A stretch of 64,000 nucleotides of DNA from Phascolarctobacterium sp. ET69 (GTDB lineage Bacteria; Bacillota; Negativicutes; Acidaminococcales; Acidaminococcaceae), in assembly GCF_023336935.1 (NCBI RefSeq), contig NZ_JAMBLR010000003.1:124001-188000 (forward strand). Reading direction: 5' to 3'. Below are positions 38,656-49,770 of the stretch, piece after piece. The notes beneath the pieces are model-generated. The model did no database searches. It was given only the letters and a program-made list of their open reading frames with translations, and was not told the DNA's origin. The translations under genes were made by a program, and so were the position numbers. The first letter of the stretch is position 1, and each line of letters opens with the position of its first letter.

Positions 38656-38732
38656 GGTGGCTGTGGTGAAGCGGTTAACACGGCGGATTGTGGCTCCGTT
38701 ACGCGAGGGTTCGAATCCCTCCAGTCACCCCA
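38656..38732 (+). tRNA. tRNA-His (GTG)
   Basis: The cloverleaf has acceptor GTGGCTG paired with CAGTCAC, anticodon GTG in GGATTGTGGCTCC, a GGTTCGAATCC T-arm and an encoded CCA. The extra G at position -1 (38656) faces C73, which is the identity mark of tRNA-His. Confidence 0.95.
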
Positions 38733-38738
38733 TATTTT

Positions 38739-38814
38739 TGGGGCGTAGCCAAGTCGGTAAGGCACGGGACTTTGACTCCCGCATGCGTTGGTTCGAGTCC
38801 AGCCGCCCCAGCCA
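38739..38814 (+). tRNA. tRNA-Gln (TTG)
   Basis: Acceptor TGGGGCG pairs with CGCCCCA, followed by G73 and encoded CCA. The anticodon loop ACTTTGACT gives TTG. It lies 6 bases after tRNA-His. Confidence 0.95.
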
Positions 38815-38822
38815 AATAACGT

Positions 38823-38898
38823 GATCCACTAGCTCAGTCGGTAGAGCACCTGACTTTTAATCAGGGTGTCCCGCGTTCGAGTCGCGGGTGGATCACCA
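38823..38898 (+). tRNA. tRNA-Lys (TTT)
   Basis: Acceptor GATCCAC pairs with GTGGATC, then A73 and encoded CCA. TAGCTCAGTCGGTAGAGC is the D-arm, the loop CTTTTAA gives anticodon TTT, and CCGCG/CGCGG is the T-stem. Confidence 0.95.
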
Positions 38899-39642: not shown

Positions 39643-39726
39643 GCGGATGTGGCGGAATTGGCAGACGCACCAGACTTAGGATCTGGCGCCTTCGGCGTGC
39701 AGGTTCGACTCCTGTCATCCGCACCA
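39643..39726 (+). tRNA. tRNA-Leu (TAG)
   Basis: Acceptor GCGGATG pairs with CATCCGC, then A73 and encoded CCA. The anticodon stem CCAGA/TCTGG carries loop CTTAGGA (anticodon TAG), and the variable arm CGCCTTCGGCG is long, as in class II tRNAs. Confidence 0.95.
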
Positions 39727-49357: not shown

Positions 49358-49387
49358 AAGGGCAGCGCTGCTCTCTTTTTTTATTTT
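49358..49387 (+). terminator. Possible terminator in the gene-free region
   Basis: AGGGCA (49359-49364) and TGCTCT (49369-49374) pair around GCGC with one wobble, followed by CTTTTTTTATTTT. I see no gene that it would serve, so it may end an unannotated RNA starting near 49270-49330, or be chance. Confidence 0.4.
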
Positions 49388-49417
49388 GTGCATGAAGGGG
49401 TGTAGTTTACTGCTTGC

Positions 49418-49548
49418 GGCACTATCTCTGCTTGGAGATAGTGCCTGTTTTGCGCGGGCATTTTAGGTACTACTGCTTACGTACGGTAGTACTTAGGGAA
49501 CAAGGTATAATTATAATAATAAACCTGCGGTTTATTGGGAACAAGGTA
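49418..49548. other. Cluster of three hairpins and a 12-base direct repeat
   Basis: Hairpin 1 has perfect 11-base arms (GGCACTATCTC 49418-49428 with GAGATAGTGCC 49435-49445). Hairpin 2 uses GTACTAC (49467-49473) and GTAGTAC (49486-49492). Hairpin 3 uses AATAAACC (49518-49525) and GGTTTATT (49529-49536). The direct repeat GGGAACAAGGTA follows hairpins 2 and 3 at 49496 and 49537. A purine tract runs from 49561 to about 49612. There is no coding frame with a ribosome site. A structured RNA or protein-binding array is possible. Confidence 0.5.
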
Positions 49549-49614
49549 AGAACGTAATACGGCAAAGAAAAGATAAAGAGAAAAAACAGGAAAAAAGAGA
49601 AAAGAAAAGAAACT

Positions 49615-49749
49615 CACCCATATAAACGGCAAAACGAGTACAAAAATTAACCATGCGCAAAAAAATTAAGCAAAAATTTCCGGCAGCGGCAAAAAATAAA
49701 TTTTGCGCGCAGGTAAATTTTTAAGGCATAAAATCCGTTTATATGGGTG
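49615..49749. repeat. Large nested inverted repeat of 135 bases
   Basis: Perfect 15-base outer arms CACCCATATAAACGG (49615-49629) and CCGTTTATATGGGTG (49735-49749) enclose inner arms AAAAATTAACC/GGTAAATTTTT (49642-49652, 49712-49722) and TGCGCAAAA/TTTTGCGC (49654-49662, 49701-49708). The whole could fold into one long bulged hairpin. A 6S-like RNA, another structured RNA, or a miniature mobile element would all fit; I cannot decide. The gap 49093-49827 otherwise holds no gene. Confidence 0.6.
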
Positions 49750-49770
49750 TAAGGGGTTTGCAAAATAAAA

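Follow-up and report, generated by a model that had tools for sequence, protein, structure and literature searches.

The gene-free stretch at 49359-49756 of the window (the whole 64,000 nucleotides of Phascolarctobacterium sp. ET69 DNA analyzed here) is one instance of a structured element, about 400 bp long, that is non-coding and specific to the Phascolarctobacterium family. Both the structure of this element and the existence of an element family are well supported, and its hairpin and mirror-symmetric purine tract keep their symmetry through sequence change, which points to a putative triple-helix-like structure under selection. We infer the function of the element; in our best reading, to which we assign a probability of roughly 45%, it would be a triplex-capable, hairpin-bearing leader element that spread, with the window copy left as an orphan. 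The window copy is laid out as follows.

49359-49384, plus strand: terminator-like hairpin AGGGCAGCGCTGCTCT followed by a T run, the left edge of the element
49418-49445, no strand assigned: perfect 11-bp hairpin GGCACTATCTC..GAGATAGTGCC, the left accessory module
49464-49495, no strand assigned: hairpin H1, TAGGTACTAC..GTAGTACTTA, kept in every full g1 copy
49496-49507, plus strand: first copy of GGGAACAAGGTA, adjoining the 3' side of H1
49518-49536, no strand assigned: hairpin H2, AATAAACC-TGC-GGTTTATT, with a CC-TGCG-GG loop
49537-49548, plus strand: second copy of GGGAACAAGGTA, adjoining the 3' side of H2
49564-49612, plus strand: mirror-symmetric polypurine tract
49615-49749, no strand assigned: long hairpin H3, a three-tier nested inverted repeat of 135 bases
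49615-49629 and 49735-49749: outer arms of H3, 15 bp, perfect
around 49642-49662 and 49701-49721: middle (inner) arms of H3, enclosing a variable tip
49750-49756, plus strand: conserved right edge TAAGGGG, of general form GTGARRGG

The first-pass annotation had listed a possible terminator, an 11-bp hairpin, two hairpin-GGGAACAAGGTA units, a purine tract, and a 135-base nested repeat here; all are present, and its statement that no gene frame explains the region holds as well. What it missed is the mirror symmetry of the purine tract and the fact that the entire region recurs as a dispersed repeat; the tract, a mere detail in that account, is the most unusual part of the element. The window copy is flanked on the left by M23 peptidase and bactofilin genes and on the right by an iron-containing alcohol dehydrogenase (adh) gene, all on the minus strand, and a search for a sigma-70 promoter in the gap returned nothing above shuffles. 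The likeness of AACAAGGTA to the 3' region of 16S rRNA was dropped as expected by chance. Several modules can be followed to other copies: the block AGGGCAG(C/T)GCTGCTCTCTTTTTTTATTTTGTGCATGAA is identical between the window copy and a copy beside crcB (L028), and the terminator-like hairpin, common to these two, was probably copied along with the element; the 11-bp hairpin occurs alone at the secDF site in two congeners (L046 and L047; matches at query positions 61-101); the conserved block TTAGGGAACAAGG, at the first GGGAACAAGGTA, is common to the window element and the sister genus g16; and other short hairpins stand in the place of H2 in other copies. The window also holds four tRNA genes, at 38657-38895 and 39643-39723.

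A search for further copies, one of the checks proposed earlier, found four in the genome itself. Besides the window copy these are L028, which lies between crcB and the DUF1659/DUF2922 genes and has 88% identity to the window over 400 bases, a third upstream of an Amidase_2 gene, and a fourth upstream of a SulP transporter gene. Each of five congeners has 2 to 5 copies, which occupy the three home sites (DUF1659, amidase, and SulP) where contigs allow, and two congeners have a further copy beside a LysE-type gene. Comparison of the gap in related genomes, also proposed earlier, showed the window site (the adh/M23 gap) to be empty in all five congeners (in G004, where the locus has the other orientation, this was read from the spacing of BLAST matches). 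The window copy is a species-specific extra that resembles the genome's own DUF1659-leader copy. Copies in one genome are often closer to each other than copies at the same site are across species, as with the genome's own amidase and SulP copies, a pattern suggestive of gene conversion or re-insertion.

A sequence-only model of the purine tract, used to find wider relatives, recovered them in genera g10 and g16, with 12 to 16 partial or full matches in each of four g16 genomes. The g16 layout runs from a short hairpin through TTAGGGAACAAGG, another short hairpin, a GGCAAAG purine tract, TCTCAC, and a three-tier long hairpin to GTGAGGGG. Orthologous gene ends in g16 differ between species in whether they carry the element, lack it, carry a different subtype, or retain only remnants of it; presence/absence polymorphism was seen at gyrA, clpB, rnc, rpe, and other sites, together with deletion remnants, and one gyrA site carries different subtypes. 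None of 29 classified copies lies between divergent genes and all adjoin at least one gene end, although these counts are approximate because flank orientation came from a simple open-frame caller that missed at least two amidase genes.

The purine tract (50 to 75 nt) is a mirror repeat, giving the same reading from its center in both directions. The window tract can be written as AAAGAAAAGA(T)AAAGAGAAAAAA-CAGG-AAAAAAGAGAAAAGAAAAGAAA, with a one-base bulge (T) in the left arm and a center of 4 nt that includes a C; its gapped mirror score is 20.0, against a mean of 12.8 and a maximum of 16.0 in dinucleotide shuffles (0 of 300 reached it). Across 36 tracts, which are homologous and so not independent samples, 33 had a mirror score that none of 300 dinucleotide-preserving shuffles reached (z up to 11), the exceptions being two very short g10 tracts (5/300 and 2/300) and that of g18 (13/300). 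Perfect arms extend to 24 to 35 nt, for example, AGAAGAAAAAAGGAGAGGAAAGGGAAAAAGAAAAC-CAA-CAAAAGAAAAAGGGAAAGGAGAGGAAAAAAGAAGA (L179). Under descent alone a left arm should be equally like its own right arm and the right arms of other tracts, but in a partner-swap test, which allows for shared ancestry, arm similarity was 0.917 for own partners and 0.585 for others (0 of 5,000 permutations), a result that also holds within g16 alone. Left arms match their own right arms best, and the mirror symmetry therefore co-varies. The genome's own amidase and SulP copies, for instance, both have altered arms, GATAAAG to GAACAAG on the left and GAGAAAAG to GAGAACAAG on the right, which leaves a perfect mirror. 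In 871 kb of sequence, partly overlapping and collected on account of these elements, we counted 31 distinct mirrors whose perfect arms reach at least 14 nt, simple runs excluded. All were purine or pyrimidine rich, and every such mirror checked falls in the element, including an oddly placed one (L198) that also proved to be an element. At the LysE-site copy L044 (G002) the tract has grown to some five units of 20 bases, AAAAAATAGTAAAAAAGAGA, the kind of expansion that a slippage-prone structure would be expected to undergo.

We know of no RNA secondary structure that requires mirror symmetry. H-DNA does require it of a sequence, as do purine-motif triplexes, whose third strand is antiparallel to that of the purines (PMC4666352, PMC4060949), and the tract has both sequence features that H-DNA calls for, a homopurine composition and mirror symmetry. 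A pyrimidine complement on the same strand, sought within 300 to 350 nt, was for most copies no better than in shuffled flanks and far from perfect; in the window, a T-rich stretch at the terminator gives a partial complement (-13.1 versus -28.8 kcal/mol). The partner must therefore be the opposite DNA strand, and from this together with the mirror symmetry we infer a DNA or RNA-DNA triplex. An intrastrand triplex of the PIT/TM type was rejected, as the third, pyrimidine segment is missing from the same strand. Some mirrored positions place C opposite C, a poor triplex triad, so a simple H-DNA model leaves some things unexplained; the tract is moreover A-rich, and purine-motif triplexes are weaker in A-rich sequence, which counts against a triplex at the tract.

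The oldest and most widely shared position of the element lies immediately ahead of an endolysin-like Amidase_2 gene. We searched the family with the amidase and read the upstream DNA; the layout of purine tract, long hairpin, ribosome-binding site, and amidase recurs in at least six genera (g1, g2, g6, g10, g16, and g17, and weakly in g18), with differing sequences that had diverged too far for the DNA search to detect. In several other genera an element leader was missing or was not recovered. Beyond the family, none was seen at those amidase loci that could be located and read. In g16 and g17 the cluster order is sigma-like gene, element, amidase, DUF1659, and DUF2922, to which g17 adds YvrJ (identities from Pfam, NCBIfam, and PHROGs). 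The amidase is similar to phage endolysins (PHROG 5867, E value of 9e-33), the sigma-like protein falls below the curated cutoffs of the sigma-70/ECF models that it matches, and the literature searched for DUF1659, DUF2922, and YvrJ held nothing on function. At amidase genes the right edge of the element is a ribosome-binding site or abuts one, and the hairpin ends at or just before that site (GTGAAAGGAGG, GAGAGGAG), suggesting that translation, too, is controlled there. Across genera of the family the sigma-like/amidase/DUF1659/DUF2922/YvrJ cluster is itself conserved (L183, L184, L195, L179, and L193). At L198 (G023, g6), tandem units of ~31 bases, AGTGCCAACGTTCAGTTAGCACTCCGAAGTA, lie between the element and the amidase gene.

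In our preferred reading, the element in its home position would serve as a leader or promoter-proximal control region. The tract would be transcribed with its purines in the RNA-like strand, allowing H-DNA or an RNA-DNA purine-purine-pyrimidine triplex to form; the triplex would stall transcription, the hairpin beside the ribosome-binding site would limit translation, and the two together would restrain a potentially lytic gene cluster, with copies later spreading to other intergenic sites. The more specific proposition, that this is a bacterial control element acting via a selected purine-purine-pyrimidine triplex, its mirror kept by compensatory change, ahead of an endolysin-like cluster, is tentative, and we would sooner doubt it than accept it. 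A leader role cannot be general, because at the SulP and LysE sites and at most g16 copies either no sense gene follows closely or the neighboring gene points toward the element. The window copy likewise has no close gene on its strand and adjoins the adh terminator; it is thus probably an orphan without a target, and it may be inert.

The hairpins could instead belong to a structured RNA, a leader or small RNA that is trans-acting or protein-binding, with the tract as a single-stranded protein site or ribosome standby site, an account that we consider improbable. They are certainly strong: the long hairpin beats shuffles (DNA z = -7.0, RNA z = -5.7; 0 of 200), and partner swaps among 48 hairpins gave 20.2 kcal/mol for own versus 12.3 for other outer arms and 22.8 versus 14.0 for inner parts (0 of 3,000 permutations in each case), so the arms co-vary. 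The site upstream of ribosome-binding sites and the CC-UNCG-GG loops of some copies would also suit an RNA. One-base stem mismatches on the plus strand, however, fall in 7 GT and 12 AC contexts with no excess of G-U over A-C, so RNA from the plus strand is not favored over DNA structure and cannot be argued for on grounds of G-U bias; either the mismatches are compatible with a DNA structure or there are too few of them to tell. Consensus RNA folding of the g1 alignment alone returned almost no co-variation because the copies are too alike, the signal appearing only with the sister genus added. Single-stranded protein sites, for their part, need no mirror symmetry, which leaves the co-variation of the tract unexplained. 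The proposed Rfam scan gave no match to 6S RNA (RF00013) or any other family at the gathering threshold, nor at E values up to 10 in a search of 631 bases. The earlier suggestion of a 6S-type RNA is thereby set aside: the element shares a long bulged hairpin with 6S RNA but differs in being multicopy and in having other modules, of which the long hairpin is one. The companion suggestion, another RNA or a protein-binding array, is possible: the structure is real and co-varies, but the G-U bias that might have marked a plus-strand RNA is lacking.

The possibility that the element is mobile was the best-supported part of the first-pass annotation, and the extra copies, the empty window site in five congeners, and the site polymorphism in the sister genus are in its favor. 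Its stronger form, a nonautonomous BOX- or MITE-like repeat whose folded single strand is recognized by an enzyme encoded elsewhere, with the amidase position as the oldest insertion, is possible but on balance unlikely. The g16 polymorphism with its gyrA subtypes and deletion remnants, the lineage specificity of the window copy, and the constant contact with a gene end all speak for insertion. On the other side, no transposon-type ends, target duplication, or enzyme were identified: no terminal inverted repeats or target site duplications were recognized by eye between occupied and empty sites, at a resolution limited by diverged flanks; Y1 transposase (PF01797) had no match in the genome itself and was present in 2 of 7 genomes searched, which does not fit an IS200/IS605 derivative; and a pattern scan of viral contigs (IMG/VR) for the exact conserved element junction found none. 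Tight linkage to the amidase across several genera would be unexpected of random insertions. We find it very improbable that a recombinase flips the hairpin tip between terminal inverted repeats in the manner of phase-variable switches. Two pairs of copies do agree better in reverse (G002 DUF1659 site versus G001 SulP site, forward 16 and reverse 56; window versus G000 amidase site, forward 18 and reverse 46), but the tip is itself near-palindromic and the orthologous copies of G001 to G004 all share one orientation, other pairs being undecided. Least credible is a small lysine-rich coding region in the purine tract: a few copies (L103, L106, L183, L184, and L198) have an ATG and an open frame, but no frame is common to all, most copies have no start, and each frame is interrupted in some (the g6 case judged by eye only), and the missing starts and interrupted frames led us to reject it.

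BOX, STAR, and ERIC are interspersed, structured intergenic repeats, and we know of none with a co-varying mirror tract. The element resembles them in being dispersed, intergenic, and structured, with positions that vary by species; sequence relation to them was compared through Rfam only. STAR repeats are also covered in PMC3532100. Triplex-capable bacterial repeats are already known as short intrastrand triplex motifs in many bacteria: PIT elements (Hoyne et al.) and TM motifs (Holder et al. 2015, PMC4666352) are, like the element, intergenic, multicopy, and triplex-capable purine sequences with no common gene function. They are short, however, and carry all three strands within one strand, the Escherichia coli motif being a 37-nt G/C-rich consensus, whereas the element is A-rich, with 2 x 15 to 35 nt in mirror symmetry only, joined to a long hairpin. 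In its homopurine tract with mirror symmetry the element is like H-DNA-forming homopurine mirror repeats, which are reported to be generally normally represented in prokaryotic genomes (PMC4060949). The literature searched, which left subscription papers mostly outside its reach, held no description of the element family and no report of a bacterial family whose mirror symmetry co-varies between copies; to our knowledge, a long co-varying mirror tract coupled to a hairpin leader is a new variant.

Whether H-DNA has a selected role in bacteria is an old question that is usually argued from motif counts, and a natural set of diverged tracts, every one of which has retained its own mirror, is evidence of another kind. 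The tract series also offers existing pairs of matched and mismatched arms on which direct tests can be run. In addition, an undescribed repeat family, as well as the conserved sigma factor/amidase/DUF1659/DUF2922/YvrJ cluster, is now labeled in common gut bacteria.

Two further observations were made along the way. parS-like sites (TGTTTCACGTGAAACA, at most 1 mismatch) number 26 to 43 per genome in g16 (G020, G030, G035, and G067), compared with 1 to 5 in the other genera searched, and at least seven g16 copies of the element are directly preceded by such a site and a conserved AGGGGGACATG block (loci examined: L086, L091, L092, L098, L100, L107, L110, L114, and L121); a genome-wide spread of ParB sites in g16 would be unusual. 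Small frames (MTTYEALSLMITFGILVATIVLGCK and MTVYESLSLMVAFGTLIAIILSKK) in the left flank of L105 (G020:C9), at L055 (G000:C2, near 433809), and at L167 look by eye like holin-like type I toxin peptides.
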